Part shown: positions 21,986-60,490 of the stretch, piece after piece
Numbering within the stretch: position 1 is the stretch's first letter
How the letters are laid out: the number at the start of each line of letters is the position of its first letter
Assembly (NCBI GenBank): GCA_946414885.1
Contig: CAMKQH010000006.1
Coordinates: 62,001 to 126,000 of the forward strand
Direction of reading: 5' to 3'
DNA: 64,000 nt
Origin: an uncultured Lachnospiraceae bacterium
GTDB lineage: Bacteria > Bacillota > Clostridia > Lachnospirales > Lachnospiraceae
Notes under the pieces: model-generated
What the model saw: only the letters and a program-made list of their open reading frames with translations
What the model was told of the DNA's origin: nothing
Databases searched by the model: none
Position numbers and translations under genes: made by a program

Positions 21986-21993
21986 TTAAAAGG

Positions 21994-41206: not shown

Positions 41207-41215
41207 GAGCGGAAT

Positions 41216-44629: not shown

Positions 44630-44685
44630 CTAGACAAGAAACCATTTTGAATCACGTTACGTTAGAACTTTTTGGAGGTAAAGCG

Positions 44686-44949: not shown

Positions 44950-44973
44950 AAAAAGTGCTTTAATTTTTTTACC
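44945..44973 (+). terminator. AT-rich hairpin before the polysaccharide operon
   Basis: GGTAAAAAAA (44945-44954) pairs with TTTTTTTACC (44964-44973), overlapping the stop codon of the acidic protein. Most pairs are A-T and no T-run follows the stem, so it may end transcription only weakly. Confidence 0.35.
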
Positions 44974-44978
44974 TTGAG

Positions 44979-44987
44979 TGATATAAT
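44979..44987 (+). promoter_or_regulatory. Extended -10 promoter of the Pel-like operon
   Basis: TGATATAAT combines the TG of an extended -10 with a perfect TATAAT (44982-44987). The -35 area (TTTAAT at 44959) is poor, as is usual for this class. Predicted start near 44994, giving a 56-base leader, too short for a cyclic-di-GMP riboswitch. Confidence 0.65.
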
Positions 44988-45049
44988 AATAATTTGGTTA
45001 TTCGTTCTTCTACCAGTAAATACGGCATTCTTAAAGGAAAGGCGCGCAA

Positions 45050-45313
45050 ATGAACGGCAAGAAGCGATATCAAATACGGCATGCGGCAGGTCAGTACTGG
45101 CTGCTGGACATGGAGCAAAAGCCGGGAAAATACAAGGCGCCAATGGCGCTAAATGAGACGGGAGCCATGATCCTGAACAGTTTTTGGGAGCAGGGCGATC
45201 CGAAGGCGGCAGCCAAGGCATTAAGTGAAGAGTATGAGATCGGAATGGATGAAGCGCTCGCGGACGTGACGGAATTCTTGGGACAACTGAAGCGCCAGGG
45301 CATTGCATTATAG
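45050..45313 (+). CDS. PqqD-like small protein at the head of the Pel-like operon
   Basis: An 87-residue protein with the PqqD winged-helix pattern: a beta hairpin start (YQIRHAAGQYWLLDME), the LNETGAMILNSFWEQG segment and a C-terminal helix pair (VTEFLGQLKRQGIAL). PqqD folds bind leader peptides for peptide-modifying enzymes (RRE), but no radical SAM enzyme or precursor peptide is nearby in this operon. A similar fold may serve here as an adaptor or sensor. ATG follows AAAGGAAAGG; the next gene starts 22 bases on, so it is the first gene of the polysaccharide transcript. Confidence 0.75.
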   Translation: MNGKKRYQIRHAAGQYWLLDMEQKPGKYKAPMALNETGAMILNSFWEQGDPKAAAKALSEEYEIGMDEALADVTEFLGQLKRQGIAL

Positions 45314-45334
45314 AGTTGGAAAGGGCATGGAAAG

Positions 45335-47608
45335 ATGGATATTTTACTGATCGGGAGCACGGGAAGCCTGATGCGGAAAATGGTGGAAAAGCTCCACAAG
45401 GAGGGACACAGGATTTTCGTCCTGACGGAGGAAGGCAAGGACACGTTCTTTAACCGGAGAGTCTTTGAGACCTATCGTTTTGCATATGACAACGCATGTA
45501 TCCGCGAGGTATTTGTGAGCGTAAAGCCGCAAGTTACCTTGTTTTTGGGCGCTTATGACAAGACGTTTCCCTGGAAGACGGGCATGAATACTCCCGTTAA
45601 GTTTAGCTCCAGTCTTCTGAATCTGTTAATGTCCTTCTCTGCATTGCGTCAGGGAAGATTTATCTATCTTTCTTCCGAGGAAGCCTTGGAGGGTTTTGAA
45701 GCGACGGATGACGGCTACGTGGAGCGCAGCAAGAATATCTCAGAAAAGGCACAGTCCATCGCCATGGGAGAGAAAACCTGTCTGGATTACGGCAAGATGA
45801 CCATGGGAGACGTGATGGTGCTTCGCGTTGGAAATCTTTACGGCATTCCGGAGGACGCGTCTGAGCTTGACAACGTCTGCGCAAAGATGTGCATGGATGC
45901 TCTCGATCTGGGCGAGATCAAGCTTCACGCCGGCAGGACCGTCAGTGCCCTGAACGCAAAGCCAGTGATGGAAATGCAGGAGGATGACCTGACGATCCTG
46001 GAAGGAGAAAAGAGCTACCGTCTGCTCCACGTCATGGATGCAGTGGAGTATATTTATAAAATGATGACAGTGAGCGGTCATCAGTCAGACATGTACCAGA
46101 TTGCTGGAAAGACGCTGATCACCCAGAGGGAGATGGCGCAGCTTATCATCTCCGGAATGAAATCGAATCAGCCGGAGGAAGACGCTCCGGTGATCTTGGA
46201 CAGCCTGTTGGATTCCCAGACCAACGTTACCCTCGACATGGAAACAACGGACGAGGAGTTTGGGCTGTTTGAGATGAATCCGCCCAGAAAGGCCTTACCG
46301 ATTCTTGCTGACTATATCAAGAAACACGCCGGAAGATTCTCAAGGCTCTCCGACAGACAGGAGAGTGCGTGGGATGCCTTTGTGCGCAAGGGCAAAGAGA
46401 TGATCCGCGCGGCCGTTCCCTTTGTCGAGAACTTAATCTTGTTTATTCCCTTCTTTATGCTCAATAACCGTGCAACGGATCACGAATACTTTAAGCATCT
46501 GGATTTCTATCTGTTGTACGTGTTGCTCTTTGCGATCGTGCACGGACAGCAGCAGGCGATCTTTTCCTGTCTTCTTGCGATCGCAGGTTATTTCTTCCGC
46601 CAGATGTACTGGCGATCCGGATTTGACGTGCTGTTGGACTACAGTACCTACGTATGGATGGCACAGCTCCTGATCCTCGGTCTTGTTGTTGGTTACATGA
46701 AGGATAAACTGAAGGCCGTTAAGGAAGAGAGTAACAATGAGGTCAAATTCCTTTCGAGACAGCTTGCGGACATGTCTGACATCAACGGAAGTAACGTTCG
46801 CGTGAAGGACGTGCTGTCCGATCAGCTGGTGAACCAGAATGACAGTATCGGAAAGATCTACGAAGTGACTTCCAGCCTGGATCAGTATGAGCCTGAGGAG
46901 GTTCTTTTCTACGCGGCAGACGTTATCGCCAAGATCATGCACTGCAAGGACGTGGCGATTTACTCCGTCTCCGGTGAGGTTTACGCGAGACTCGTATCCT
47001 CCACTTCGGACAAGGCAAGGTCCCTGGGAAATTCCGTACATTACAAGAAGATGGAGCAGATGTATGAAGTGCTCTGTCAGAAAAAGGTTTATATTAACAA
47101 GAACATGACGGAGGAGTATCCTCTGATGGCAAATGCCATTTTTGGCGGTGACCAGATGCAGATCATCATTATGGTTTGGGGCATCTCCTGGGAGAGAATG
47201 ACGCTCGGCCAGGCGAACGTGCTCGCCATTGCCAGTTATCTGACCCAGAACGCCGTACTGCGCGCGGACAAGTACATGGAAGTTCTCCGTTCCCAGAGAT
47301 ACCTTGGAAACACGCACGTCATGGAGGCAGAAGCCTTTGATCAGCTCATAAGTGCCTTCTTAAGGGCAAGGGAAAAGGGCTTTACCAAGTGTACGCTGAT
47401 CAACGTTACCAATACGCAGGGTTATGCGATCGAAGACCTGGACAAAAAGCTTGACAATGTCCTGAGAGACACGGACTACGTGGGTCTTACGGCAGCAGGA
47501 ACCATACAGGTACTTCTGGCGAATTCCGGACCTGCTGACGCGGAGTTCGCGATCAAGCGTCTTCAGAACGCCGGTTTTGAGTGTTATCGCGAGGAGGAGG
47601 CAGTATGA
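45335..47608 (+). CDS. pelD: SDR epimerase-like domain fused to PelD-like cyclic-di-GMP receptor
   Basis: A 757-residue fusion. Residues 1-315 resemble an extended SDR sugar epimerase (ILLIGSTGSLMRKMVEKLHK, FIYLSSEEALEGF, MVLRVGNLYG), but the usual YxxxK catalytic pair cannot be found where expected, so the domain may bind without catalysing. Four membrane helices follow (about 362-460), then a helical linker, a GAF domain (about 515-640) and a degenerate GGDEF domain (about 650-757). In the latter the GGDEF signature is replaced by AAGTI while the I-site RxxD is kept (Arg711, Asp714 in VLRDTDYVGL). Membrane-GAF-degenerate GGDEF with RxxD is the layout of PelD, the cyclic-di-GMP receptor of Pel synthesis. 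Stop overlaps the next start (ATGA). Confidence 0.85.
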   Translation: MDILLIGSTGSLMRKMVEKLHKEGHRIFVLTEEGKDTFFNRRVFETYRFAYDNACIREVFVSVKPQVTLFLGAYDKTFPWKTGMNTPVKFSSSLLNLLMSFSALRQGRFIYLSSEEALEGFEATDDGYVERSKNISEKAQSIAMGEKTCLDYGKMTMGDVMVLRVGNLYGIPEDASELDNVCAKMCMDALDLGEIKLHAGRTVSALNAKPVMEMQEDDLTILEGEKSYRLLHVMDAVEYIYKMMTVSGHQSDMYQIAGKTLITQREMAQLIISGMKSNQPEEDAPVILDSLLDSQTNVTLDMETTDEEFGLFEMNPPRKALPILADYIKKHAGRFSRLSDRQESAWDAFVRKGKEMIRAAVPFVENLILFIPFFMLNNRATDHEYFKHLDFYLLYVLLFAIVHGQQQAIFSCLLAIAGYFFRQMYWRSGFDVLLDYSTYVWMAQLLILGLVVGYMKDKLKAVKEESNNEVKFLSRQLADMSDINGSNVRVKDVLSDQLVNQNDSIGKIYEVTSSLDQYEPEEVLFYAADVIAKIMHCKDVAIYSVSGEVYARLVSSTSDKARSLGNSVHYKKMEQMYEVLCQKKVYINKNMTEEYPLMANAIFGGDQMQIIIMVWGISWERMTLGQANVLAIASYLTQNAVLRADKYMEVLRSQRYLGNTHVMEAEAFDQLISAFLRAREKGFTKCTLINVTNTQGYAIEDLDKKLDNVLRDTDYVGLTAAGTIQVLLANSGPADAEFAIKRLQNAGFECYREEEAV

Positions 47609-48549
47609 CTGGAGCAATCTGGTTTATCCTGATCTTGATCATAAATACGATCATATGCGTCCTGTTTGTGGTATGGGGGCATTTTCAGCAGCTTCGTGAT
47701 GAGGAAGCAAAGCAAAAGCATGCGCTTATGAGTATGCAGGGATATTATATCCAGGCGGGGATCATGTTTCTTTGTCCCGTTGTCGGACCTTTGTTTTTCA
47801 TTACGGCTCAGATCATCTATGCCTATTTCTTCCGGAACGGGCCGGATCTGGCTGACGTTATTTTTGGCAAGGACAAGGTGAAGGCGCCGAGAAAAGCGGA
47901 AGAGGAAGTGGAGAGAAACCGCGTGCCCCTGGAGGAGGCGCTTGCCGTATCTGACAGGCAGAGCGTCCGGAGTCTGATGCTGGACGTGGTCCGCGGAGAC
48001 GTAAGCAAATCCCTGGCTTCCATTAATCTCGCCCTGAACAGTGAAGATTCTGAGACGTCCCACTATGCGGCAACGGTCATGAGAGATTCCCTAAATGACT
48101 TCCGGCAGACCAGCCAATACAAATATCTTGCCTTCAAGGAGGATTACGTTGCGCCTGAAGTGAAGGCCTGTGAACTGATCGAATACATGAATGACATTCT
48201 GACGCAGGACGTATTCCCTGAGATGGAACAAAGGGAATTCGTGAACAAGATGGATGAAGCCTGCAATTTCCTGTATTCTGACGAGGAATACCGCGAGAAG
48301 ATCCTTCCGCAGTACGTGGAATGGGTTGGACTCCTGCAATTAAAGCTGCGTAATTACGACAGGGTGAAATATTGGTGCAACGCATCGAAGGAATTGTTCC
48401 CGAACGAGCTTTCAACGTATACCCTGCAGCTGAAACTATATTTTTGCATGGAGAACAGGGAAAGCTTTTTCCGGGTTATGGACGAGCTGAAGAAGGCGGA
48501 CGTGGTCATCGACCGCGAGACGCTGGAATTGATCCGTATTTTCAACTAA
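47605..48549 (+). CDS. pelE: PelE-like membrane and helical-repeat protein
   Basis: A 314-residue protein. Two hydrophobic segments lie in the first 80 residues (IWFILILIINTIICVLFVVW and AGIMFLCPVVGPLFFITAQI). The remaining part is soluble and helical, with TPR-like pairs (LEEALAVSDRQSVRSLMLDV, WVGLLQLKLRNYDRVKYWCN). Size, layout and place directly after a PelD-like gene match PelE, a scaffold that joins PelD, PelF and PelG in the inner membrane complex. ATG 47605 has GGAGGAGG upstream and overlaps the pelD-like stop. Sequence similarity cannot be tested here; assignment rests on position and architecture. Confidence 0.75.
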   Translation: MTGAIWFILILIINTIICVLFVVWGHFQQLRDEEAKQKHALMSMQGYYIQAGIMFLCPVVGPLFFITAQIIYAYFFRNGPDLADVIFGKDKVKAPRKAEEEVERNRVPLEEALAVSDRQSVRSLMLDVVRGDVSKSLASINLALNSEDSETSHYAATVMRDSLNDFRQTSQYKYLAFKEDYVAPEVKACELIEYMNDILTQDVFPEMEQREFVNKMDEACNFLYSDEEYREKILPQYVEWVGLLQLKLRNYDRVKYWCNASKELFPNELSTYTLQLKLYFCMENRESFFRVMDELKKADVVIDRETLELIRIFN

Positions 48550-48564
48550 GAGGAGAATCCGCTC

Positions 48565-50871
48565 ATGTCAATGCAATTATTGACGCTGTTACAATTACTA
48601 TACATTCTGGTCTTGTACATAGGGGTTGTGATCCTGATCCCTGCGGCAGTGTTTCATTCCAAATTTGAAGATCATCCTTTTTACGTAAGATATATGGCAT
48701 ATACGTGCATTGGTAATTTCTTCCTGATGAATTTGGTTTTTGTGCTGCAGCTTCTGAAGATCTCAAACAGGACCACGCTGATCCTTGGCGTTATCATTCC
48801 GGCGCTTCTCGGGATCGCGGCCTTCCATTGGCAGGAGTGGGTGAAGGCAACTCTCGTGACGGCGGGTGAAACTACGCACAACGTCATGGTGAATACCATG
48901 GGTTTCCGTCTTTTCTTTGTCCGCATCTTCCAAAACGTTGGACAGGCTTTTACCACGACGGTCAAGGCCATTGCGGAAAACCTGATCAACCGTTGGTTTG
49001 ACTGGATCGGAACGATCGTCATCATCGCGGTCATATGCTGGCAGTATGGCGGACATCTATTCGAAGTGTTTGGATACACGACCTCTGACATGTTGGTGCA
49101 CAACCAGTGGATCAACGCCATGGGAAACAATGACATCTTTACTTCAGGCGTTTATCCTTACGGATTTCACTGCATCATTTATTTCTTCCATGCAGTGTTT
49201 GGCATTAAGACTTACGTGCTTCTCCGGCTGTTTTCTTTGGTACAGACGCTGTTGATCCACATGACGCTGTTGTTCCTGCTTCGTCTTGTCTGCAAAACGG
49301 AATCCGCAGCCTACGTTGCTACCGGATTTTTCCTGCTTTTGAACATTTGGGGCGAGAACGCGTACGTCAGATATTACAGTACGTTGCCCCAGGAATACGG
49401 CATGATCTTTATTTTGCCGGCCATTTTCTTCCTGATCCTGTTCTTCCGGGGTCGCGAGGAGGAAGAGGGCACCAAGGGGATCAAGGTTGAAAGCACGAGA
49501 ATGCTTAGACTCTTTTCCATCTGCGTCAGCATGACGCTGGCCGTGCATTTTTACGACACCATCGCATTGGGAATCCTTTGCGTGGCCATTGGCCTTGCTT
49601 TCTGCAGGGTGGTGTTTAAGAAGGAGAATATTGGCAGGATCATTTATGCCGGCGCGATCGGCCTTGTCATTGCCATTCTTCCCATGCTGATCGCTTACGT
49701 TGGCGGAACGCCCATGCAGGGTTCACTTAGATGGGGCATCAACGTCATAGAGGACAGGGGATATCAGGATGACCAGATCGACGTCATGCCGGACCAGAGC
49801 AGACTTTATGATGACAAGGGGCTTTGGGAACAGGCCGGAGCCGATTTTAGAAAACAGATCACAAACGTTGCGGCAGCAGTTACGGCAACGATCAATGACG
49901 CAGGACAGGGTACTTCAAAGGCAGGCGTTAAGATCGCCGGGAGCATTTTTCATACCATGCAGGCGTATCTTGCGGGGTACGTGTTTATCAGCAAACACTC
50001 TTCCTTTGGCGTGATCACGCTGATCCTGATCGTGGCCGGCATCGTTCTGGGAGTGATCACCTTGTTCAGGGATGAAAAAGAGCAGGGCAGAATGTTGCTT
50101 GCAGCTTCCGTCAACATGATTTTCTTCTCCCTCCTTTTGGTGGCAAGGGAATTGCACCTGCCGGTGCTGATGGATAAAAACCGTACGTCCATTTACGTCG
50201 CGTTTTTCCTTATCATCTTGCTGGGAATGATCATGGATTTCTTTATCGACTTGGGAATAGGTCTGATGGAAGGTGACATCCTTAAAAAGGTATCACCGGC
50301 GATCTTTGCAGTCGTATGCTTCGTGTTCCTTGGACTGGCAGGATGGGTCCGCCAGCCGGCGAAGATCGAAGCCTTCCAGAAAAACGGCGCGGTGATCTGT
50401 CTGACGAACATTTTGCGGGACAACGAACCGAAGACGTTCAACATTATCTCCGCAAACGACGAGATCCGCATGGCGGAGGAATATGGTTATCACTACGAGG
50501 CACACGAGCTTCTTTTGCAGAACATGGGCTTTAACGTAAACAATTATCTTGTTGTTCCTTCGTCAAGGGTTTACGTGTTCATAGAGAAGATTCCCGGGGA
50601 CTACGATGCTCCTTATGAGGGAAGCGGACGTCCTCTTTCGAGGGAGAGCGCGTCAAAGCCGCTGCCCTTTGGATCGGGCATTGACGTGTATAAGGGTGAG
50701 AACCGTCACGTTGTCATGTCGAAGCTCTATTACTGGGCGCAGATCTTTGCCAGCATGTACGAGAACGAAATCTCCGTGTATTACGAGGATGATGAATTTG
50801 TATGCTATGAGATCAGACAGAGCGTGGACAGGCCTTTTGACATGTCATTTGATTACGGATATAACAATTAA
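48565..50871 (+). CDS. Large multi-pass membrane protein of the Pel-like operon, unrecognised
   Basis: A 768-residue protein with about 12 or more hydrophobic segments, two extended outside loops, and a C-terminal soluble part of about 180 residues (from AKIEAFQKNGAVICLTNILR). An early loop carries HNQWINAMGNNDIFTSGVYP, and a membrane-edge motif reads AVHFYDTIALGILC. The general form, many helices with Asp/Glu/His-rich first loops and a soluble C-terminal part, resembles GT-C type glycosyltransferases, but I do not recognise a family. It starts at ATG with AGAGGAG upstream, 15 bases after the PelE-like gene. It has no counterpart in the classical pelABCDEFG cluster and may be a specific part of this variant. 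Confidence 0.8.
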   Translation: MSMQLLTLLQLLYILVLYIGVVILIPAAVFHSKFEDHPFYVRYMAYTCIGNFFLMNLVFVLQLLKISNRTTLILGVIIPALLGIAAFHWQEWVKATLVTAGETTHNVMVNTMGFRLFFVRIFQNVGQAFTTTVKAIAENLINRWFDWIGTIVIIAVICWQYGGHLFEVFGYTTSDMLVHNQWINAMGNNDIFTSGVYPYGFHCIIYFFHAVFGIKTYVLLRLFSLVQTLLIHMTLLFLLRLVCKTESAAYVATGFFLLLNIWGENAYVRYYSTLPQEYGMIFILPAIFFLILFFRGREEEEGTKGIKVESTRMLRLFSICVSMTLAVHFYDTIALGILCVAIGLAFCRVVFKKENIGRIIYAGAIGLVIAILPMLIAYVGGTPMQGSLRWGINVIEDRGYQDDQIDVMPDQSRLYDDKGLWEQAGADFRKQITNVAAAVTATINDAGQGTSKAGVKIAGSIFHTMQAYLAGYVFISKHSSFGVITLILIVAGIVLGVITLFRDEKEQGRMLLAASVNMIFFSLLLVARELHLPVLMDKNRTSIYVAFFLIILLGMIMDFFIDLGIGLMEGDILKKVSPAIFAVVCFVFLGLAGWVRQPAKIEAFQKNGAVICLTNILRDNEPKTFNIISANDEIRMAEEYGYHYEAHELLLQNMGFNVNNYLVVPSSRVYVFIEKIPGDYDAPYEGSGRPLSRESASKPLPFGSGIDVYKGENRHVVMSKLYYWAQIFASMYENEISVYYEDDEFVCYEIRQSVDRPFDMSFDYGYNN

Positions 50872-50898
50872 GTTGTTTCATCACGGAAGGAAAAGGAA

Positions 50899-52749
50899 AT
50901 GGTATCCAGAAGAAATTTTTATACAATTCTCACCCTGCTTTTGATCATGATCTTCATGTTCATGTTTTCGGGCGTGATCAAGCAGGAATTAAATGAATAC
51001 GGTACCAATTCTTATGCGGAAGTGGAAGCGGATGAAAAGGCACTGAAGGAAGAGAGCAACGCTCTCAGCGAAAAGCTGGCCGTAAAGAACGGCGTTCGCG
51101 CGGATACGACGGCATATACCGCTGAGCTGGAGACGGGAGACTGGGAGAAGAGAGTCCTCTTTGTCACAAGGGATCCGTCGAATGAGGTTTCAAAGGTGGT
51201 TACTTCCTGGTGCAACTACATGAAGCGCCCTATGATCCGGAGCACTACCTTGACGGACCTGGATCTGGATCAGATTTCCAGACTTCCTGAGGTCATCATC
51301 TTAGACGGCGAGGCCATGGAGTGGACTCAGGAGACGGATGCGGCGCTTAGATTGGCACACGGCGGTGCCTGCGTGATCTTTGCCCGCATGCCAAGCGCAG
51401 AGGAAATGCGAAATAACCAGAGACTTCGCGAGATGATGGGAATCAAGACCGTCTCCCGCGAGGATCAGCACGTGGACGGATACAGACTGTTCCCCGGATT
51501 CCTTTTGGGAACGGAGGAAGAATACGTGGAAGGCCCCGGCAAGGAAGGCTGCCAGGATCTGGATCTGATGATCCCCTGGTACGTGACGGGAGAGGGCTCC
51601 AAAACCTACGTCATGGGCGTGGTGAAGGATGGTTCCAAGGAAAGCGAAGAGCTGCCCTCCATCGTCTGGAGACATGCCTTTGGATACGGTAAGGTCTTTT
51701 GCATCGGCGGTGATTTCATGACGAAGGAAACGGGAATCGGTTTCCTGACGGCATGCCTTGGGGAAAAAGATTCTTATGACGTTTATCCCGTGATCAACGC
51801 ACAGAACCTTGTGCTTGCCAATTATGGCGGCGTTTCGAACGAGAACGCCGAGACGCTAAACCGTTTGTATGACCAGAAGCAGATCCCCTTGTTCCGCGAC
51901 GTGGTCTGGCCCTCCATCATTTCCATGACGGAGCGTTCCGGAAACAAGCTTTCCCTGATGGTTTCTCCCCAGATGGATTATTCCGATGACGTGGAGCCGG
52001 AGGAAGGATTGCTCATTTATTACTTGAAGCTTTTGAATGAAGGTTATGGCGAAGCCGGCCTGTCCACGAAGCAGTTCTCATCGGTTTCCATCCGCGAAAA
52101 GCTTGGGAAGGACAGGGTTTACTGGGAGAAGGAAGCTGGCGAATACAGCCTGAGATCCCTGTATTTACACGACTTTACAAAATATGACGAGGCAAAGCAG
52201 TACGTGCCGGATTTGAGAACCATCGTGACGGATGCAACTGACGGCGAGCCGGTGTTTTACGTGGATGACAACGTAACCTGTCAGGAAACCACAAATCTGC
52301 TCATGACCCACAGGTTTTCCGAGGATATCAAGATGAAGGCCTTTGAGACGGCGCTTGGTTTCTCCAACGTGGTGATGGACATGTCCCTTGTATCCCATCC
52401 GCAGGGCGATGAAGACTACGCAAGCTTTTCCAGACAGACGGCAAGTAATTTCCTTACGTACTGGAAGCCCTATGCCGGATTTGACAAGACGACGCTTTCT
52501 GAGAGCGACCTGCGCATCCGCAGATTCTTCGCTCTGGATTACAGCGATCACAAGCAAGACAATGAGATCTCGCTTCACGTAGACGGGTTTGACGGCCAGG
52601 CATTCTTCATCCTGAAACTGAATCAGGGTGAGATCGATGAGGTGACGGGAGCGGAGGTTACGAACTTAAAGAATGGCTTTTTCCTGCTTGACGTTTCCCA
52701 GGAGGACGTCAAGATCAAGGTGCGTGAGAGACGCCTGTTTTATTATTGA
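50899..52749 (+). CDS. DUF2194-type extracellular protein, possible PelA counterpart
   Basis: A 616-residue protein with one N-terminal membrane anchor (FYTILTLLLIMIFMFMF) and a large outside part. A first domain (about 80-300) is amidotransferase-like in pattern (KRVLFVTRDPSNEVSKVV, YGKVFCIGGDFMTKETGIGF). The second half is compatible with a carbohydrate hydrolase or deacetylase-like fold (SLMVSPQMDYSDDVEPEEGL). This layout agrees with DUF2194 proteins of Gram-positive exopolysaccharide clusters, which stand where PelA (hydrolase/deacetylase) stands in other Pel clusters. I cannot point out a catalytic metal triad. It is tightly placed before pelF (23-base gap). Confidence 0.75.
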   Translation: MVSRRNFYTILTLLLIMIFMFMFSGVIKQELNEYGTNSYAEVEADEKALKEESNALSEKLAVKNGVRADTTAYTAELETGDWEKRVLFVTRDPSNEVSKVVTSWCNYMKRPMIRSTTLTDLDLDQISRLPEVIILDGEAMEWTQETDAALRLAHGGACVIFARMPSAEEMRNNQRLREMMGIKTVSREDQHVDGYRLFPGFLLGTEEEYVEGPGKEGCQDLDLMIPWYVTGEGSKTYVMGVVKDGSKESEELPSIVWRHAFGYGKVFCIGGDFMTKETGIGFLTACLGEKDSYDVYPVINAQNLVLANYGGVSNENAETLNRLYDQKQIPLFRDVVWPSIISMTERSGNKLSLMVSPQMDYSDDVEPEEGLLIYYLKLLNEGYGEAGLSTKQFSSVSIREKLGKDRVYWEKEAGEYSLRSLYLHDFTKYDEAKQYVPDLRTIVTDATDGEPVFYVDDNVTCQETTNLLMTHRFSEDIKMKAFETALGFSNVVMDMSLVSHPQGDEDYASFSRQTASNFLTYWKPYAGFDKTTLSESDLRIRRFFALDYSDHKQDNEISLHVDGFDGQAFFILKLNQGEIDEVTGAEVTNLKNGFFLLDVSQEDVKIKVRERRLFYY

Positions 52750-52772
52750 TAACCGTTGGGAATGGAGACAAT

Positions 52773-54197
52773 ATGAAGATTTGTATCGTTGCTGAAGGCT
52801 GCTACCCCTACGTGGTGGGCGGCGTATCCAGTTGGATCCATAGTTTGATCAAGGCTTTTCCCGAGCATGAGTTTGTGGTGCTTGCCATTTTGGCGAACCG
52901 CTCTTTTCGCGGGAAGTTTGCCTATGAGCTTCCGGAGAACCTTAGCCAGGTGCATGAGGTGTATCTGGAGGATTATGACTGGTGCAGTAAGAAGACGGAC
53001 AGAAAACGCAGAAAACAATTGAGCAATGAGGAATATGAGGCAGTTTTGAGCCTTTTGATCAACCAGAACGTGAAGTGGAGCGTCTTGTTCAACCTGTTCC
53101 AAAAGAGGGAATTCTCACTGAATGAATTCCTGATGGGGCCGGAGTTCCTTAGGGCCGTGCGGGAATGCTATCAGATCAACTACCCGGAGGCAGTATTTTC
53201 GGATTTCCTGTGGACGATGAGATCCATTTACCTGCCGCTGTTCCTGGCACTGAGCACGGAGATCCCGAAGGCAGACCTGTATCACTGCGTTGCCACGGGT
53301 TATGCGGGCGTTCTCGGCGCCATGGCAAAGGAAAAATACGGTTGCGGGCTCCTGATTTCGGAACACGGCATCTACACCCGTGAGCGTGAGGAGGAACTGA
53401 TCCGCGCAAAATGGGTTGCGGGAATTTATAAAAACGTTTGGATCGATCAGTTCAAGAAGATGTCAAGACTGGCTTACTCCAGCGCAGATCTTGTGACCAG
53501 TCTGTATGAACACGCGAGAAAGCTCCAGATCGAGCTGGGATGTAATGAAGAAATCACGATGGTTACGCCCAACGGCATCGACGAAAACCGTTTTGCGGCA
53601 CCTTCGGGAGAGAGGGTTGCCGTTGAAGGCATGGTTCACGTGGGCGCCGTCCTGCGCGTTACGCCCATCAAGGACGTAAAGACGATGATACGCGCCTTTG
53701 CCTTTGCCAAGGAGCGCGTCCCCAACCTAAAGCTTTGGGTCATGGGACCGACGGAAGAGGATGAGAAATACGCAACCGAGTGTTACGAACTGGTAGAAAC
53801 CATGGGTGTACAGGACGTGGCGTTCACGGGAAGGGTTGACGTTACGAAATACTTATGGCAGATGGACTTTACGATCCTCACCAGCATCAGTGAGGGACAG
53901 CCTCTCACGATCCTGGAGTCCTATGCGGCGCACAAGCCCGTGATCGCAACGGACGTTGGTAACTGCCGGGGCCTTATCTTTGGCGAGGATGACGGAATCG
54001 GACCTGCCGGCATCCTGACCCACGTCATGAACGTGGAGGAGATCACGGCGGCCATGGTAGAGCTTGCAACCAATCTGCAAAAGAGACTTGAGCTCGGTGA
54101 AAACGGGTACCGCAGAATGATGGGACGCTACAAGCTGACGGACATGCAGGGTACCTACCGGAATATCTACAATTACTTCGATCAGCAAACGAAATAA
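52773..54197 (+). CDS. pelF: PelF-type GT4 glycosyltransferase
   Basis: A 474-residue cytoplasmic glycosyltransferase. The start CIVAEGCYPYVVGGVSSWIH is the PelF signature, followed by a long N-terminal domain with LISEHGIYTREREEELI, TPNGIDENRF, HVGAVLRVTPIKDVKTMIRA and SISEGQPLTILESYAAHKPV (donor-binding Glu motif). PelF polymerises UDP-activated N-acetylhexosamine to Pel polysaccharide. ATG 52773 has GGAGA upstream; the preceding in-frame ATA/GTG codons are unlikely starts. It is followed by pelG and preceded by membrane parts of the same complex. Confidence 0.92.
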   Translation: MKICIVAEGCYPYVVGGVSSWIHSLIKAFPEHEFVVLAILANRSFRGKFAYELPENLSQVHEVYLEDYDWCSKKTDRKRRKQLSNEEYEAVLSLLINQNVKWSVLFNLFQKREFSLNEFLMGPEFLRAVRECYQINYPEAVFSDFLWTMRSIYLPLFLALSTEIPKADLYHCVATGYAGVLGAMAKEKYGCGLLISEHGIYTREREEELIRAKWVAGIYKNVWIDQFKKMSRLAYSSADLVTSLYEHARKLQIELGCNEEITMVTPNGIDENRFAAPSGERVAVEGMVHVGAVLRVTPIKDVKTMIRAFAFAKERVPNLKLWVMGPTEEDEKYATECYELVETMGVQDVAFTGRVDVTKYLWQMDFTILTSISEGQPLTILESYAAHKPVIATDVGNCRGLIFGEDDGIGPAGILTHVMNVEEITAAMVELATNLQKRLELGENGYRRMMGRYKLTDMQGTYRNIYNYFDQQTK

Positions 54198-54240
54198 GCG
54201 CCTGCGGCGGGGATGCTGATTACCTGGAAAGGAAAAGAGA

Positions 54241-55722
54241 ATGGCTGGAATAGGCATTAAGCTCAATAAAATATTTGGCAAGGAGACCGTTACCACGAAC
54301 CTGATCGGTTTCGGATACAGTACCATGGTGACGGTGGCCCCCATGTTTGTGGTCATAGGCAACATTTTGCTGATGAGCTACTTTTTGCGATATGACGTGA
54401 CGGGATACAAAGGCAGAAACCTGTTTGCCGCAACGATCCTGTACATTTTCATCTTTTCGCTTTTGGCGGCAGCTCCCTATAACGCAGTCATTTCCAGGTA
54501 TTTGTCCGACGTGATCTATGACGAGACCTACGACGACATCCTGCCTTGCTATTACACGGGTCTTGCCGTCACCATTCTGACGGCCTGCCTCATGGGCATT
54601 CCCTTCAGCATTTGGGAGTGCGTGGTGGGAAAGGTGGCTTTGTACTACGTATTTACGGGGTTTTGCGGGTATATCGCGTTGGTGCTGGTCTTTTACTCCA
54701 TGCTATACCTTTCCATCTGTAAGGATTATTCAAAGATTTCCATCTTTTTCTTCTGTGGGATGTTGGCGGCATTTCTTTTGTCGTTCCTGTTTGTCAAGGG
54801 CTTTCACTTTGAAGTGTCCTACGGCATGCTGCTTGCCCTGACCATCGGCTTTGCGCTGACTGCAATCATGGAGCTGGCTACCATACGCCGCTACTTCCAC
54901 AGGAACAACAACAGCTACAAGAAGGTACTGGGATATTTCAAACGCTATTGGAAGCTGATCGTGATCAACTTCTGTTATACGCTGGGTCTGTACGTCCACA
55001 ATTTCGTATTCTGGCACACGGAGCTTCGCATGGTGGTTGCCAACAGCTTTGTCATGGCTCCCGTATATGACGTGGCCACCTGTATCGCCATGTTTACGAA
55101 CATTTCCGCGACGGTGATCTTTATCGCCAGGATCGAGATGCATTTCCATGACCGCTACAAAGCCTATTCCGAGGCCGTGACCGGCGGACGGTGGATGGAC
55201 GTGCAAAACACGAAAAACCGCATGTTCCGGCAGCTTTCCTCGGAGCTGATGAACCTTGTACGGTTGCAGTTCATCATTTCCGTGGTGATCTTCCTGCTCA
55301 TGCTGATCTTCTTGCCGAGGTTTGGATTTGCGGGACTTGTGCTTCAAATCTATCCTTCCCTGGCAGCAGGTTACTTTATCTTGTTTATCATGTATTCTGA
55401 GATCATACTTCTTTACTACTATAACGATCTGGACGGGGCAGTGATCACGTCGGCGGTATTCTGCCTGGTCACGTTCCTCGTTAGCATTTTTGCAACGCGC
55501 CTTACCCCCATCTGGTATGGGCTTGGGGTGATCGTTGGAAGCCTTACGGGCTTTGTTATCGCCTACCTGAGACTTCGGTGGGTGGAAAAGCATCTGGACG
55601 AGCACATTTTCTGCCGGGGAACGTTATTCCCGACAAAGCTTTCCAAGAAACCTTCCACGCTGGTTTATGACCGCAGAAACCCCAACGTAAACGGGGGCGT
55701 GGATGAGAAAATGATGAGCTAG
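54241..55722 (+). CDS. pelG: PelG exopolysaccharide exporter
   Basis: A 493-residue membrane protein with about 12 helices of the MATE/MOP flippase type. Family features: MAGIGIKLNKIFGKETVTTN, GFGYSTMVTVAPMFVVIGNI, ISRYLSDVIYDE, ELRMVVANSFVMAPVYDVAT and ARIEMHFHDRYKAY. The C-terminal tail is hydrophilic. PelG forms the inner-membrane channel that moves the growing Pel polymer together with PelD, PelE and PelF. ATG after GGAAAGGAAAAGAG. The presence of both PelF and PelG next to a PelD-like protein makes the Pel-type assignment firm. Confidence 0.93.
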   Translation: MAGIGIKLNKIFGKETVTTNLIGFGYSTMVTVAPMFVVIGNILLMSYFLRYDVTGYKGRNLFAATILYIFIFSLLAAAPYNAVISRYLSDVIYDETYDDILPCYYTGLAVTILTACLMGIPFSIWECVVGKVALYYVFTGFCGYIALVLVFYSMLYLSICKDYSKISIFFFCGMLAAFLLSFLFVKGFHFEVSYGMLLALTIGFALTAIMELATIRRYFHRNNNSYKKVLGYFKRYWKLIVINFCYTLGLYVHNFVFWHTELRMVVANSFVMAPVYDVATCIAMFTNISATVIFIARIEMHFHDRYKAYSEAVTGGRWMDVQNTKNRMFRQLSSELMNLVRLQFIISVVIFLLMLIFLPRFGFAGLVLQIYPSLAAGYFILFIMYSEIILLYYYNDLDGAVITSAVFCLVTFLVSIFATRLTPIWYGLGVIVGSLTGFVIAYLRLRWVEKHLDEHIFCRGTLFPTKLSKKPSTLVYDRRNPNVNGGVDEKMMS

Positions 55723-55747
55723 TACGCATTGAGAGGTGATACTTCAG

Positions 55748-56140
55748 ATGAAATGGTTTGACGCGATCGTGGACGTATGGTTTTATCTTGGACTCGTAAT
55801 GGTGGGCGTTTCAACGCTTATGTTCGTCATTGCGTTTTTGAGGTATGCCCGGAAGAAAATGAGCGACGGATTTATGTTGATCTGGTTTGTGATCTCCATA
55901 ATCGTCCTTGTGCTGGGCATCGTCCTGATCGTTAACGGATACAGCTCCGGGCTGGTCGTGGCCGTGCTTTCCACGGTCTGCGCGCTCTTACTGATCTTGA
56001 TCTTCGTCGTCAGCAGTATGGTTTCCGAACTGATGATGAAGGTGAGGGAGCTGGCCATGCAGGTTGCACTTTTGAACCAGGAAAATGACAGTATGTTACA
56101 ACAGATCAACAAACTGAAGGAGTCGGAGAAAGATGCCTAA
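55748..56140 (+). CDS. DUF2304-type small membrane protein
   Basis: A 130-residue protein with three hydrophobic helices (GLVMVGVSTLMFVIAFLRYA, FMLIWFVISIIVLVLGIVLI, LVVAVLSTVCALLLILIFVV) and a coiled-coil C-terminal end (MQVALLNQENDSMLQQINKL). It resembles DUF2304 proteins, which commonly accompany polyprenyl-phosphate GT2 glycosyltransferases; such a GT2 is encoded two genes downstream. ATG 55748 follows GAGAGGT. It overlaps the next GT4 gene by 8 bases, so they are translated together. Role unknown; a helper for the GT2 is a reasonable guess. Confidence 0.75.
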   Translation: MKWFDAIVDVWFYLGLVMVGVSTLMFVIAFLRYARKKMSDGFMLIWFVISIIVLVLGIVLIVNGYSSGLVVAVLSTVCALLLILIFVVSSMVSELMMKVRELAMQVALLNQENDSMLQQINKLKESEKDA

Positions 56141-57347
56141 AAACATCTTGTTTGTGATCAATACTTTGAGCAGGGCCGGCGCGGAGACTGCGTTACTTGA
56201 GCTTCTCCCCTGTTTCTTTGGCCCTGAGTGGAAAGTGGACTTATACGTGATCCTGGAACAGGGAGAGCTTGTGGATCTTGTTCCGAGACACGTTACGCTT
56301 CTAAACAAACGCTTTTCCAAGGAATCCGTCCTGACGGGGCGCGGGCGCGTGCGGATGTTTTTCACGGTCTGCCGGGCGCTCATCAGCAGGGGAACCATGT
56401 TTCGACTGTTCCCGTATCTTGTCTCTAGCGCGTTCCGCATGCTGAGACGGGGAGGATTGAAGGTGGATAAGCTTTGTTGGCGTGTCCTCTCGGACGGTGC
56501 GCCGAGGTTTTCCAAGGAGTATGATCTGGCCGTTGCCTACATTGAGGGCGGCTCCTCGTATTACGTTGCAGATCACGTAAATGCGAAGAAGAAGGCAGCA
56601 TTCATTCACGTGGACTATGGAATGTCCGGATATGACAGAAAGCTGGACAAGGATTGCTTTTTGAAGATGGATCACGTGTTCCCAATCTCGGAGGAGACGC
56701 AAAAAAGCTTTTTGGAAGCGTATCCAGAATGTGAGGGAAAGACTTCCACGTTCCACAATATTGTCAATCAGGAAGTCATCCGCGAGAAGGCAATGCTTCC
56801 GGGGGGATTCACCGATGAGTATGACGGTGCCAGGATCCTTACGGTGGCAAGGCTGACAAAGCAAAAAGCATTTCCGACGGCCATTGACGCCATGAAGCTC
56901 CTAAAGGACGCAGGCGTGAAGGCGAGATGGTACGTGCTTGGGGAGGGCGACGAGCGAGGACGACTGGAGCAAAAGATCCGCCAGCTCGGTCTGGAGAAGG
57001 AGTTTATTTTGTTGGGCGCGGTAGGGAATCCTTATCCGTATTACGTTCAGGCTGACCTTTACGTGCATGCTACGGCTTATGAGGGGAAGAGCATTGCGAT
57101 TCAAGAGGCGCAAACCCTTGCCTGTCCCATCATAACGTCCGATATAATAAGTAACAGACAACAGGTGGAGGACGGGGTGGACGGCCTCGTCATCGCACAA
57201 AAGCCAGAGGCGCTTGCAAAGGCCATTCAGGAGCTCCTGAATGATCATGAGAAGGCAAGACGCCTTGGGGAGAATGCGGCAAAACGCAAGTTCTCCTACG
57301 AAAAAGATTTGGAAGGACTATTTAGTTTAACGTCATCGAGGGAATAA
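56133..57347 (+). CDS. Glycosyltransferase family 4
   Basis: A 404-residue GT-B enzyme. The acceptor half begins ILFVINTLSRAGAETALLEL; the donor half has GARILTVARLTKQKAFPTAI, WYVLGEGDERGRLEQKI and YVHATAYEGKSIAIQEAQTL, the E-x7-E sugar nucleotide motif, then ADLYVHA and CPIITSD. It most likely adds a sugar to a lipid-linked acceptor at the inner membrane face. Acceptor and sugar cannot be deduced. It is in the second half of the polysaccharide region and overlaps the DUF2304 gene. Confidence 0.9.
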   Translation: MPKNILFVINTLSRAGAETALLELLPCFFGPEWKVDLYVILEQGELVDLVPRHVTLLNKRFSKESVLTGRGRVRMFFTVCRALISRGTMFRLFPYLVSSAFRMLRRGGLKVDKLCWRVLSDGAPRFSKEYDLAVAYIEGGSSYYVADHVNAKKKAAFIHVDYGMSGYDRKLDKDCFLKMDHVFPISEETQKSFLEAYPECEGKTSTFHNIVNQEVIREKAMLPGGFTDEYDGARILTVARLTKQKAFPTAIDAMKLLKDAGVKARWYVLGEGDERGRLEQKIRQLGLEKEFILLGAVGNPYPYYVQADLYVHATAYEGKSIAIQEAQTLACPIITSDIISNRQQVEDGVDGLVIAQKPEALAKAIQELLNDHEKARRLGENAAKRKFSYEKDLEGLFSLTSSRE

Positions 57348-57348
57348 A

Positions 57349-58134
57349 ATGCAGAATTCAAAGCCTAAGGACTTGCTAATCATTATACCGGCGTATAATG
57401 AAGAGCAAAACATACTGGCTGTGTTGAAGGAGTTAAAGACGCCCGAGATCATGGACATTGCGGACGTATTAGTCATTAATGACGCATCCTCCGACGCAAC
57501 AAACAGAATAGTGAAAAACGCGGGATTTACGCTGATCTCCAATATCTTTAACCTGGGATACGGGAGCACGATCCAGCTTGGCTATAAATATGCCATACGG
57601 CGAAAGTACAAGTACGTGATCCAGATGGACGCGGACGGACAGCATGATGCCTGTAACGTGGTGAAGCTGTATGACAGACTGAAGACGCCGAACCGGGAGG
57701 GAAAGTACCCGGACATCGTATTGGGGTCGCGCTTTATGGACGGAAGCAGTGAATTTGAAGTTTCCGCCGCAAAGCAGTTTGCGTTTATGATTTTTCGTTT
57801 TTTGATCAAGTTGTTCACGGGAAGAAGGATTGCAGATCCGACCACGGGCCTGCAGGGTCTCAGCAACCGTGCCGTGTTGTATTACTCAAAGTACGGCCGG
57901 TTTGATGACCGTTACCCGGACGCCAACATGATCATTTTGATGCTTCTCGTGGGATACCGCGTAGAAGAGATGCCTGCGGTCATGCACAATCGCGTTGGCG
58001 GGGAAAGCATGCATTCCGGCTTTAAGCCGATCGTTTACATGATACGGATGATCTTTTCCATTTTGGCCATTGTGTTCCGCATCAAGATCTTGCAAAAGAA
58101 AGCAGGAGAGAAGAGGGATGTTATCTTTTATTAA
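57349..58134 (+). CDS. GT2 glycosyltransferase, polyprenyl-phosphate sugar synthase type
   Basis: A 261-residue GT-A enzyme. LLIIIPAYNEEQNILAVLKE opens the fold, DVLVINDASSDATNRIV holds the nucleotide-binding Asp, QMDADGQHDACNVVKL is the DxD region, and IVLGSRFMDGSSEFEVS and DPTTGLQGLSNRAV follow, as in DPM1-like enzymes. These make polyprenyl-phosphate sugars that are used outside the membrane. Together with the DUF2304 protein nearby it may form a lipid-sugar donor module. Its last 17 bases overlap the next gene. Confidence 0.88.
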   Translation: MQNSKPKDLLIIIPAYNEEQNILAVLKELKTPEIMDIADVLVINDASSDATNRIVKNAGFTLISNIFNLGYGSTIQLGYKYAIRRKYKYVIQMDADGQHDACNVVKLYDRLKTPNREGKYPDIVLGSRFMDGSSEFEVSAAKQFAFMIFRFLIKLFTGRRIADPTTGLQGLSNRAVLYYSKYGRFDDRYPDANMIILMLLVGYRVEEMPAVMHNRVGGESMHSGFKPIVYMIRMIFSILAIVFRIKILQKKAGEKRDVIFY

Positions 58135-59389
58135 GGGACCGAAGTTCACGCCCGCAGATCCTGCAAAATCCGTGGATCCCGCGGATAATCCGGGGAGAGG
58201 CTGGTACCGCATCTATACCTACCGCCTGGAGGAGGAAACGTGGGAAGATCCGGTCCGGTATGCGGCAGAAAGCCTGGCGTTAGTATTATTTAACGTGGGC
58301 GCGTACAAGGATGAGGATCTGTCGTCCCAGGCCCTTGACAGAATGGACGGGATCCTGCAACGCTTTGAACAATTAGGCTTTGACCTGATCCTTAGAATAT
58401 GTTACGACACGGAAGGAAAAGGGATGGTCAGGGAACCCTCCCTTTTTTCGCACGTCAAAAAACACGTAACGCAGATCGCACCGCTTCTGAAAGGGCATGC
58501 CGATTCCATTTACGTTTATCAGGGGCTGCTGATCGGAAGCTGGGGAGAGATGCATGACTCTAAGTTCTTGAGCGCGCAGTGCTTAAGGGAACTTATGGAA
58601 TTGTTTCTGCGCGAGACGGAAGGGAAGGTACGGCTTGCCATCAGAAAGCCCGTTCAGTGGCGCCTGGCCTTTGCGGAGGGCGAGGAACGAGGCATGACTG
58701 GTTTCTTCAACGATGGTCTTTTGGGGTCGCCTTCACACCTTGGGACCTTTGGACCGGAAACTGCCGGAAGAATGACCTGGAAGGAAGCCTGGAGTCCGGA
58801 GGAAGAGGCGCGTTTTATGATGCCTTTCACGGCGCAGGTGCCATACGGCGGGGAGGTGATCGATGCCACCGTCCCGTTATCGGCGGAGCAGGTTGCGGGG
58901 GAGCTAAGGCGCCTTGGCACGTGCTATTTGAATTCCACCCATGACGCCGCATTGTTGACGAAATGGAAAGAGATGCCCTACGGCGGGCAGAGCTTATATG
59001 ATTACGTTGGCCGCCGGTTGGGATACTGTTTTGACCTGCGGGAAGCGGACTGTAGGGTCAAAAAAGATGACCTGAGGATCACGCTAAAGATTGACAATCA
59101 GGGATTTGGAACGCTATATGACGATGCCGACGCCTGGGTGTTCACAAAGCGGAACGGACAGGCTTCTGATTTTGTGAAGCTGGGAAAGCTCGAGGGAAAC
59201 CTTCGGGGATTGCCGTCTGGGTCCAAAATGGAGCTTCGCGGCTTGTTTTCGATGGAAGGCATCGCGGGACTTGATAAAGGGGAAGAGCTTTTCCTCTACG
59301 TCAGGATCCTTCGCAGAAGAGACGGGAAGATGATCTCTTTCGCGAGGGAAAGCCAAGACGGGTACTTATTGTTTGGCACGATAAAATAA
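58118..59389 (+). CDS. DUF4874/DUF4832 protein, putative glycan-active protein
   Basis: A 423-residue protein without signal peptide. DUF4874 part: DNPGRGWYRIYTYRLEEETW, LVLFNVGAYKDEDLSSQALD and FDLILRICYDTEGKG, which looks like a glycoside-hydrolase-type barrel, with YVYQGLLIGSWGEMHDSKFL. DUF4832 part: GCGGNT-free beta domain from DALLTKWKEMPYGGQSLYDY onward, ending with LRITLKIDNQGFGTLYDDAD. Such proteins are frequent in exopolysaccharide clusters and secreted proteins of unknown activity. ATG 58118 has AGGAGAGAAGAGGG upstream and overlaps the GT2 gene. Lack of a secretion signal is unusual for a hydrolase that should meet an exported polymer. Confidence 0.78.
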   Translation: MLSFIKGPKFTPADPAKSVDPADNPGRGWYRIYTYRLEEETWEDPVRYAAESLALVLFNVGAYKDEDLSSQALDRMDGILQRFEQLGFDLILRICYDTEGKGMVREPSLFSHVKKHVTQIAPLLKGHADSIYVYQGLLIGSWGEMHDSKFLSAQCLRELMELFLRETEGKVRLAIRKPVQWRLAFAEGEERGMTGFFNDGLLGSPSHLGTFGPETAGRMTWKEAWSPEEEARFMMPFTAQVPYGGEVIDATVPLSAEQVAGELRRLGTCYLNSTHDAALLTKWKEMPYGGQSLYDYVGRRLGYCFDLREADCRVKKDDLRITLKIDNQGFGTLYDDADAWVFTKRNGQASDFVKLGKLEGNLRGLPSGSKMELRGLFSMEGIAGLDKGEELFLYVRILRRRDGKMISFARESQDGYLLFGTIK

Positions 59390-59404: not shown

Positions 59405-60490
59405 TTGAAAAGAATCTGTTTTTTTTCAGGAGACGTGACAAGAAACGGCGGTACTGAACGCGTCGCTGTCACCATAGCGAATGAACTCGCGAAGGATCCG
59501 GAGACGGAGGTTTGCTTTTTGAGCCTTGTGGAGCAAAAGGAAGTGCCCTGCTACGAGATCTCTTCGAACGTATCGCGCCACGCACTCGGCAAGAAGTGGC
59601 TGACGCCGGGCCCTGCCTACCTTCCGCTGATCCCGAAACTGCGAAGGTTTTTGAAAGAGCACCGGATCGATCTGATCATTGACATAGACATTGTGCTGGA
59701 CGTACTCTCCGTGCCTGCGGCGAAGGGATTAAACGTTAAGGTCATTTCCTGGGAACATTCAAACTGTGCGTTTGAATTGTCGGAGGGGTGGTATCGCAGG
59801 ATCATTCTCAATCATTTTACAAAAAAGACGGATGCCATTGTCACGCTGACGCCGGGAGACGCGAAGGCGTTTCAAAAGCATTTTGGAAGGCAGGACCGGA
59901 TCGTCGCCATTGCAAATCCGGCCACGATGACAGACATGGCAAGGCGTGAGCGGCAAAACTGGCTGATCACCGCAGCAAGGCTTGTCCCGGAAAAGGGATA
60001 TGACCTGCTAATGCAGGTGGCGAAGATGGTCCTTTCGAAACGCAGGGACTGGAAGTGGATCCTTTGCGGTGAAGGGTCGGAGAGGGCCGCGCTGGAAGCA
60101 TTCCGCGAAAAGGAAGGTCTGCAGGGGCAGTTGGAATTGGTTGGATACGTTCCCAAGGTGGAAGATTATCTGGCGCAGGCAAAGATTTTTGTACTGACGT
60201 CCAGGGCAGAAGGCTTTCCCATGTGCCTTTTGGAAGCCGGGGCCTGCGGCTTGCCTGCAGTGAGTTTTGACGTTCCCACGGGACCGTCTGATATCATTCA
60301 TGACGGCGTAAACGGATGGCTGATCGAGCCGTTTGACTGCGAATCCATGGCGGAAAAGCTCTTACTGCTCATGGAAGATGAGGAATTGCTTACGGAAATG
60401 GCGGAAAAAGCGCCGGAAGGCATAAGACCGTTCCTGTTGCCGAAGGTCATGGAGCAGTGGAATGCCTTGCTAGGACAGCTTTTGGAGTGA
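59405..60490 (+). CDS. Glycosyltransferase family 4
   Basis: A 361-residue GT-B enzyme. The first half has ICFFSGDVTRNGGTERVAVT and WEHSNCAFELSEGWYRR; the second has ITAARLVPEKGYDLLMQVAK, WILCGEGSERAALEAF and FVLTSRAEGFPMCLLEAGAC with the donor Glu motif, then GPSDIIHDGVNGWLIEP. It probably transfers a hexose or N-acetylhexosamine during assembly of the second glycan. The start is TTG with a strong GGGAGG site 6 bases before it, which clearly fixes it. It is 15 bases after the DUF4874 gene. Confidence 0.9.
   Translation: MKRICFFSGDVTRNGGTERVAVTIANELAKDPETEVCFLSLVEQKEVPCYEISSNVSRHALGKKWLTPGPAYLPLIPKLRRFLKEHRIDLIIDIDIVLDVLSVPAAKGLNVKVISWEHSNCAFELSEGWYRRIILNHFTKKTDAIVTLTPGDAKAFQKHFGRQDRIVAIANPATMTDMARRERQNWLITAARLVPEKGYDLLMQVAKMVLSKRRDWKWILCGEGSERAALEAFREKEGLQGQLELVGYVPKVEDYLAQAKIFVLTSRAEGFPMCLLEAGACGLPAVSFDVPTGPSDIIHDGVNGWLIEPFDCESMAEKLLLLMEDEELLTEMAEKAPEGIRPFLLPKVMEQWNALLGQLLE

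Follow-up and report, generated by a model that had tools for sequence, protein, structure and literature searches.

The 64,000-nucleotide stretch of uncultured Lachnospiraceae DNA analyzed here (contig CAMKQH010000006.1, positions 62,001 to 126,000; hereafter the window) carries a Pel-type exopolysaccharide operon that starts at window position 45050. It encodes a 768-residue membrane protein, referred to as P768, together with a DUF2194 protein related to the Gram-positive Pel deacetylase PelADA but devoid of the catalytic residues known from that family. The operon is probably a cyclic di-GMP (c-di-GMP)-controlled Pel system in which the finishing step has been exchanged, the polymer being decorated outside the cell by a GT-C-fold glycosyltransferase instead of deacetylated by PelADA. 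Pel is called cationic because PelA or PelADA deacetylates it, and the deacetylase activity of PelADA is needed for biofilm formation in Bacillus cereus (PMC13254593, available text).

Loss of the PelADA catalytic site

PelG was sought in 397 Lachnospiraceae genomes and was found at E ≤ 0.001 in 72, of which 70 were above the cut-off. The survey loci, labelled L plus a number, were the 72 PelG places from 69 genomes, with the window's own genome excluded; two pieces from genome G244 were merged, and a small piece from G122 and three places below the cut-off were not fetched. Adding eight P768 carriers of the same genus and the window itself gave 81 loci (set 1), in which genes were mapped by iterative profile search and of which 48 carry P768 and 33 do not. 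Several survey loci are cut by contig ends, so a gene scored as absent may lie outside the contig. Named genomes were also scanned with a P768 alignment; the best 80 of 192 confirmed matches were used, and removal of 11 overlapping loci left 69 non-duplicate scan loci.

The DUF2194 protein (50899..52749; this and the other operon genes are on the + strand) matched PF09960 at 63.3 bits (cut-off, 30.4) and has one N-terminal membrane helix. The sequence-only reading had placed it in the position of PelA. An unrelated replacement was ruled out by profile matches to the PelADA family (CE26), which identify a diverged PelADA homologue. DUF2194 proteins from P768-free loci matched B. cereus PelADA (PDB 9zau) at E = 2.4e-112, their profile matched the window protein at 2.4e-12, and a profile comparison for homology to CE26 gave 99.9% probability. 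Compared with 9zau directly, the window-type profile matched weakly (E = 0.15), and the window protein used as a single query matched no PDB sequence. An AlphaFold2 model (predicted local distance difference test score, 89.0) has a predicted three-domain fold resembling polysaccharide deacetylases, Agd3 (6nwz), and PelA (9cgy); 9zau was not among the fold matches listed from a library ending on 8 April 2026.

None of the five core residues (D262, D263, H350, H354, and H488 in B. cereus numbering) is present in the window protein, the catalytic Asp-Asp, HxxxH, and His motifs all being absent. Across P768-carrying loci, all 108 DUF2194 rows of at least 500 amino acids (aa) retain none or one of the five. 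Among non-duplicate loci with a scorable DUF2194, an intact site was found in 0 of 111 P768 carriers and 25 of 30 P768-free loci; pieces below 350 aa (500 aa where stated) were dropped. The PelG survey alone gave 0 of 39 against 25 of 30, with three loci unscorable (L066, L081, and L115 had no such piece). The five P768-free exceptions are L052 and L113, cut by contig ends, L095, which has the rest of the cassette described below, and the degenerate L114 and L116. Errors of alignment were ruled out as the source of the dead sites by an alignment-free check, in which all three motifs were found in 0 of 109 P768-associated rows and 33 of 46 others, and single motifs in 3, 1, and 1 of the 109. 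The outgroup comprised 16 DUF2194 proteins. The complete set of five residues is present in 13 of the 15 from P768-free loci, the exceptions being L240 and L246, and in the sole P768 carrier (L244) the site is not intact. Since the known catalytic site has been lost, the window-type DUF2194 probably no longer deacetylates, and from its sequence it appears to be a pseudo-deacetylase.

Tandem DUF2194 genes were observed in three P768-free loci (L090, L092, and L096), with one intact and one degenerate copy each. L113 and L093 are partly similar, the first copy of L113 being cut by a contig end and the copies of L093 being split. Judged by their residues, the degenerate copies could represent a second, independent-looking pseudo-deacetylase.

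P768 and linked genes in a Pel-type operon

P768 (48565..50871) had been described as unrecognised. It has no Pfam or NCBIfam match, and to that extent the description holds; by fold, it can be recognized. Structure comparison, made by VIA-align alone, found the GT-C membrane fold in the predicted structure, and we predict with high confidence that the protein is a glycosyltransferase of this fold. D175, H179, and E277 are invariant, and D175, present in all 69 aligned sequences, lies at the end of the loop that follows helix 144-166 and is a candidate for the conserved acidic residue of an outside GT-C loop. The P768 profile gave only weak, unrelated matches to PDB sequences (best E = 0.035), and a Pfam scan of 26 P768 proteins returned eight families with one member each, the best being DUF6541 at 3e-4.

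P768 was found in 39 of the 72 survey loci, spanning 33 genus codes, and its pairing with PelG is therefore not a matter of chance. Among the best 80 of 192 scan matches, PelG was present in 74 loci and DUF2194 in 78, and P768 adjoined pel genes in 79; the sole exception, L196, is on a contig that ends 455 nucleotides (nt) past P768. The genes flanking P768 are pelE and the DUF2194 gene in 22 of 48 P768-carrying loci of set 1 and 61 of 69 scan loci. The exact order PelD-PelE-P768-DUF2194-PelF-PelG is kept in 22/48 and 54/69, respectively, and the complete arrangement of 11 genes, PqqD through DUF4832, in 16/48 and 20/69, the window being included in both set 1 counts. By P768, the closest named relative among the best 80 of 192 matches is a Lachnospiraceae metagenome-assembled genome from water-buffalo rumen (98% identity), followed by Acetatifactor sp. 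RUI221 (95%). In L188 (Eubacterium plexicaudatum ASF492), PelE, P768, DUF2194, PelF, and GT4 are each broken across two reading frames, apparently through assembly error or decay.

The neighborhood search proposed in the sequence-only reading thus found the linkage of PelF, PelG, and P768 with extra genes kept in related genomes. The PqqD-like small protein that opens the operon (45050..45313; PF05402, 46.3 bits; cut-off, 23.4), which had been counted among the defining parts, is present in the window but is not constant. Of the 48 P768-carrying loci of set 1, 22 have a small PqqD gene, which immediately precedes pelD in 20; the gene was found in 0 of 33 P768-free loci. Inclusion of larger PqqD-domain proteins raises the first count to 25.

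Directly downstream of pelG lie genes for a GacJ-like DUF2304 small membrane protein (55736..56140), a GT4 glycosyltransferase (56133..57347; PF00534, 110.6 bits), and a GacI-like GT2 protein resembling polyprenyl-phosphate-sugar synthases (57349..58134; PF00535). This cassette follows P768 closely: within set 1, DUF2304 was found in 40/48 P768-carrying and 2/33 P768-free loci, GT2 in 43/48 and 2/33, and the cassette GT4 in 38/48 and 2/33. Both P768-free loci with the cassette (L052 and L095) fall inside the P768 clade in the trees described below. CotH and DUF4956 have the opposite distribution among survey loci (1/39 against 26/33 and 1/39 against 25/33, respectively). All six PDB sequence matches to GT2 (E, 2e-4 to 8e-4) were to dolichol-phosphate-mannose synthase, sll0501 (5eke and related entries), or ArnC-type chains. 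Thus, by sequence, a lipid-phosphate-sugar synthase and a small membrane partner are present and linked, as in transmembrane glycosylation systems. L095 combines the cassette and a dead DUF2194 with a 1060-residue PelD open reading frame (ORF), and P768 was absent from the stretch fetched, a possible case of GT-C loss.

The core of the operon is that of Pel. PelF, a GT4 polymerase (52770..54197, first Met at 52773; NF038011, 374.1 bits; cut-off, 100), has an intact EX7E motif (EGQPLTILE) and an R/K motif. PelG, the putative polymer exporter (54241..55722; PF16933, 498.2 bits; cut-off, 29), is the only PelG match in its genome, and both proteins pass curated Pfam and NCBIfam cut-offs by wide margins. 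In five survey loci (L086, L088, L090, L092, and L096), the PelG ORFs are 1080 to 1103 aa long, some 600 residues above the usual length. The PelE-like membrane protein (47605..48549) has two N-terminal hydrophobic segments and no Pfam or NCBIfam family above cut-off; it was assigned by its position after pelD and by homology, in iterative profile searches, to the gene after pelD in other loci, with homologues in 44/48 P768-carrying and 28/33 P768-free loci of set 1.

The PelD-like protein (45335..47608) consists of a degenerate epimerase-type short-chain dehydrogenase/reductase (SDR) part (PF01370, 39.6 bits; cut-off, 20.9), a membrane region, a GAF-like region named from published PelD architecture with no family match, and a degenerate GGDEF domain. 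Its GGDEF active motif is absent. An RxxD motif at 711-714 (R711 and D714) and R742 are present, which we take to be the counterpart of the Pseudomonas aeruginosa I-site. RxxD is present in all 103 aligned P768-carrying loci and 34 of 36 others, and R742 in 101 of the 103. With 34 GGDEF matches also present in the window's genome, we infer that the operon is under c-di-GMP control. Against PDB sequences, the PelD-like protein gave two weak matches only (E, 0.6 to 0.9). Both GxxGxxG and YxxxK are absent from the SDR part, and clostridial SDR-PelD proteins are likewise described as lacking the usual SDR motifs in the available text of PMC7112168.

Origin of the association and competing readings

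Trees and family scores place PelF and PelG within the Pel families, the point on which the sequence-only reading had made its Pel assignment depend, and in the trees both window proteins are nested among Gram-positive Pel proteins. The trees were of a quick kind with several long branches, and covered 100 (PelG) and 97 (PelF) of 102 loci, PelG domains below 380 aa and PelF below 400 aa being left out. In the PelG tree, 48 P768 rows lie on one side of a branch with a support of 99, joined only by L052, L066 (cut by a contig end), and L095. The PelF tree has a clade of 49 rows that comprises all 47 P768 rows, L052, and L095. The PelG stem of the P768 clade is well supported and measures 0.6 changes per column. 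When changes were counted without six contig-cut loci, the intact-site state changed once and P768 twice on the PelG tree, leaving two independent pairs. The association between P768 and the dead site therefore reflects a single ancient change that many genera have retained, and not recurrent convergence. A Fisher test on the site counts (p = 4e-23 for 0/111 against 25/30) was rejected as independent evidence in view of the single origin on the tree. L240, L246, L114, and L116 branch just below the P768 clade, which suggests that loss of the site preceded or accompanied the arrival of P768.

By comparison with Pel, whose polymer is alpha-1,4-GalNAc/GalN, PelF would polymerize a sugar chain in the cytosol and PelG would export it, gated by PelD. 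Outside the cell, the PelADA homologue, with its three-domain carbohydrate-handling fold and membrane anchor, would serve as a scaffold that holds or guides the polymer. By analogy with GacI and GacJ, the GT2/DUF2304 pair would make an undecaprenyl-phosphate-linked sugar, perhaps extended by GT4 and flipped by the membrane protein encoded at 60498. P768 would then transfer this sugar to the emerging chain as side groups, a step in which we infer donor, acceptor, and reaction alike. The polymer so made would be of Pel type but glycosylated and largely without charge, unlike the cationic, partly deacetylated Pel. Stated in full, a single ancient switch in the Lachnospiraceae would have turned a c-di-GMP-gated Pel machine from a cationic, partly deacetylated polymer to a side-chain-glycosylated one, finished outside the cell by an undecaprenyl-phosphate-dependent GT-C enzyme, with the dead deacetylase as a scaffold for the polymer. 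This fuller proposal is tentative, and we give it slightly less than an even chance.

Several observations weigh against an exchange of deacetylation for glycosylation. One change of the intact site and two of P768 give no repeated-origin support for the association. The site is already lost or eroded in P768-free stem lineages (L114, L116, L240, and L246), so its loss did not require a GT-C protein. The position of P768 is variable, being downstream of pelG in 12/48 set 1 and 4/69 scan loci. The GT2 protein scores below the NCBIfam PpgS equivalog cut-off (76.9 of 370 bits), and DUF2304 only just exceeds that of PF10066 (27.4 against 25.5 bits). L074, L170, L173, L178, L182, and others carry P768 with no DUF2304 or GT2 found in the stretch, and L095 carries the cassette with no P768 found. 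E315, E385, and D405 are nearly invariant in the DUF2194 alignment of P768-carrying loci, and a new active site may have been built from these other residues. The failure to find a second CE26-like gene in the genome speaks for the exchange, although that search did not extend to CE4-type deacetylases.

Two other readings are, in our view, unlikely to a similar degree. In one, the product is ordinary Pel, still deacetylated by a remodelled DUF2194 or another deacetylase, while the product of P768 and its cassette is a separate surface glycan whose genes only happen to lie in the operon. The retained deacetylase fold and nearly invariant acidic residues of DUF2194, the continuation of the operon into general polysaccharide genes, and the loci with P768 downstream of pelG would all fit. 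Set against this are the alignment-free motif counts, the lack of any invariant Asp, Glu, or His among 67 aligned DUF2194 sequences from P768-carrying loci, the failure to find a second CE26 gene, and the frequent placement of P768 between pelE and the DUF2194 gene. In the other, PelF and PelG have been re-purposed for a main chain other than N-acetylgalactosamine, on which a deacetylase became useless and was lost, with P768 decorating or capping the resulting capsule or wall glycan. The larger cluster, with several glycosyltransferases, a possible flippase, and a nucleotidyltransferase, and the well-supported PelG stem of the P768 clade are consistent with re-purposing, a doubt that Whitfield et al. 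had also voiced about Roseburia clusters (PMC7112168, available text). However, PelF scores comfortably within the NF038011 equivalog. In addition, 43 of 48 P768-carrying loci of set 1 encode DUF4832-type proteins, a group with one member that disrupts Pel-dependent aggregates in Streptococcus intermedius (PMC12345266, available text).

P768 might also act as a wall ligase for the Pel chain or for an undecaprenyl-linked glycan, so that a capsule bound to the cell would result in place of side chains. This is very improbable, as the donor suggested by the GT2/DUF2304 linkage is a single sugar on a lipid monophosphate and PelF products are not known to be lipid-linked. If extracellular glycosylation does stand in for deacetylation, the finishing chemistry of synthase-dependent exopolysaccharide machines would be exchangeable. 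The lineage concerned inhabits gut and rumen and includes culturable members, one P768 carrier being Schaedlerella arabinosiphila DSM 106076 (L158); its polymerase, exporter, and c-di-GMP receptor are retained, whereas the deacetylase site is gone and a predicted GT-C module is present instead. This reading predicts surface polymers of gut bacteria with no galactosamine and with extra, P768-dependent side sugars, which can be tested. It is also a warning that annotation as PelF or PelG is no guarantee of Pel chemistry.

Known Pel systems and the remaining genes

The cluster had been proposed as a distinct Pel subtype in the Clostridia, and PelF, PelG, the PelD I-site motif, and the linked extra genes agree with a Pel-type cluster of its own composition. 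What may be new is that composition. CE26 is already known, as are Gram-positive and clostridial Pel, SDR-PelD, DUF4832, and odd Roseburia clusters (PMC7112168, available text). The B. cereus pelDEADAFG operon has the same order of pelD, pelE, pelADA, pelF, and pelG and a PelADA (9zau) of the same DUF2194 family. In contrast, the window PelADA has lost its catalytic residues, the window PelD carries an SDR domain, and P768 loci add a GT-C protein, DUF2304, GT4, GT2, and often PqqD. Streptococcal and clostridial pel loci, including SIR_1591-1594 of S. intermedius, also have an SDR-PelD fusion with altered SDR residues and a DUF4832 protein. They differ from the P768 loci in having CotH and DUF4956, and streptococcal PelD, as described in the available text of PMC7112168, lacks the GGDEF domain whose I-site motif is kept in the window.

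The Roseburia pel genes of Whitfield et al. (2020) are likewise from Lachnospiraceae and lie in a larger capsule- or teichoic-type cluster. The available text (PMC7112168) leaves the polymer open and makes no mention of a GT-C protein or a dead deacetylase; these clusters, compared by text only, are possibly of the same subtype. The GacI/GacJ/GacK/GacL system shares a GT2, a DUF2304-type partner, a GT-C protein, and possibly a flippase, with side sugars thought to be added outside the cell. In that system, the lipid-linked sugar is a product of GacI and GacJ, and GacL, a GT-C protein, moves it onto the group A carbohydrate, a step proposed to be extracellular (PMC8035078, available text), and DUF2304 is typical of GacJ-like proteins beside gacI homologues (PMC8327497, available text). 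By this analogy, the acceptor would be a PelF/PelG polymer instead of an ABC-exported rhamnan. Fusobacterium nucleatum and Cetobacterium combine DUF2194 with PelF and PelG, F. nucleatum by gene names in a table of PMC9848294; in Cetobacterium, the DUF2194 protein retains every catalytic residue, and P768 had no match in the locus. No published description was found of a pel operon with the GT-C/DUF2304/GT2 cassette or with loss of the PelADA site, in a search that excluded subscription papers and figures, one of which, for Roseburia, may show part of this arrangement.

The seven genes first named, from the PqqD-like gene to pelG, lie on one strand with intergenic gaps of -4 to 43 nt, as had been read. 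Their supposed end at 55722 was not upheld, as seven further genes follow with gaps of at most 34 nt. After the cassette comes a probable glycoside hydrolase with DUF4874 and DUF4832 domains (58118..59389, start read as ATG at 58118; PF16173, 147 bits; PF16116, 105 bits), with no evident signal peptide and low N-terminal hydrophobicity. L046, L048, L053, L065, and others encode two DUF4832 proteins, with and without a hydrophobic N terminus; only the latter kind is seen in the window operon, so the hydrolase would stay in the cytosol. A second GT4 glycosyltransferase (59405..60490; PF00534, 137 bits) is less conserved (9/48 P768-carrying loci of set 1). The strongly hydrophobic, multi-helix membrane protein that follows (60498..62018; 13 hydrophobic windows, some overlapping) has no Pfam or NCBIfam match, occurs in 22/48 of these loci, and is a possible Wzx-type flippase, named by eye only. 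The last gene (62053..64000) encodes a GT2 fused to an NTP_transf_5-type nucleotidyltransferase (PF00535, 124 bits; PF14907, 137 bits) and extends beyond the window; in the longer genome stretch L257, the complete ORF is 772 aa and ends about 370 nt past the window. Just beyond (L257, 8804-11961), an ABC transporter adjoins a 415-aa PqqD-domain protein on the opposite strand, and other long PqqD-domain proteins occur near several P768 loci, perhaps as part of a peptide-modification system.

A promoter scan of the window gave 11 sites against a shuffle mean of 15.2, with none listed on the + strand at 44500-45050. An Rfam scan matched RNase P alone, a bacterial class A RNA at 21640-21986, with no c-di-GMP riboswitch reaching the curated threshold. 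Genes for a Ppx/GppA-type phosphatase and a polyphosphate kinase (39656-43354) lie shortly upstream of the operon. A polyphosphate polymerase is encoded in the pel loci of streptococci and clostridia (PMC7112168, available text), and the proximity of these genes in the window may be coincidence.

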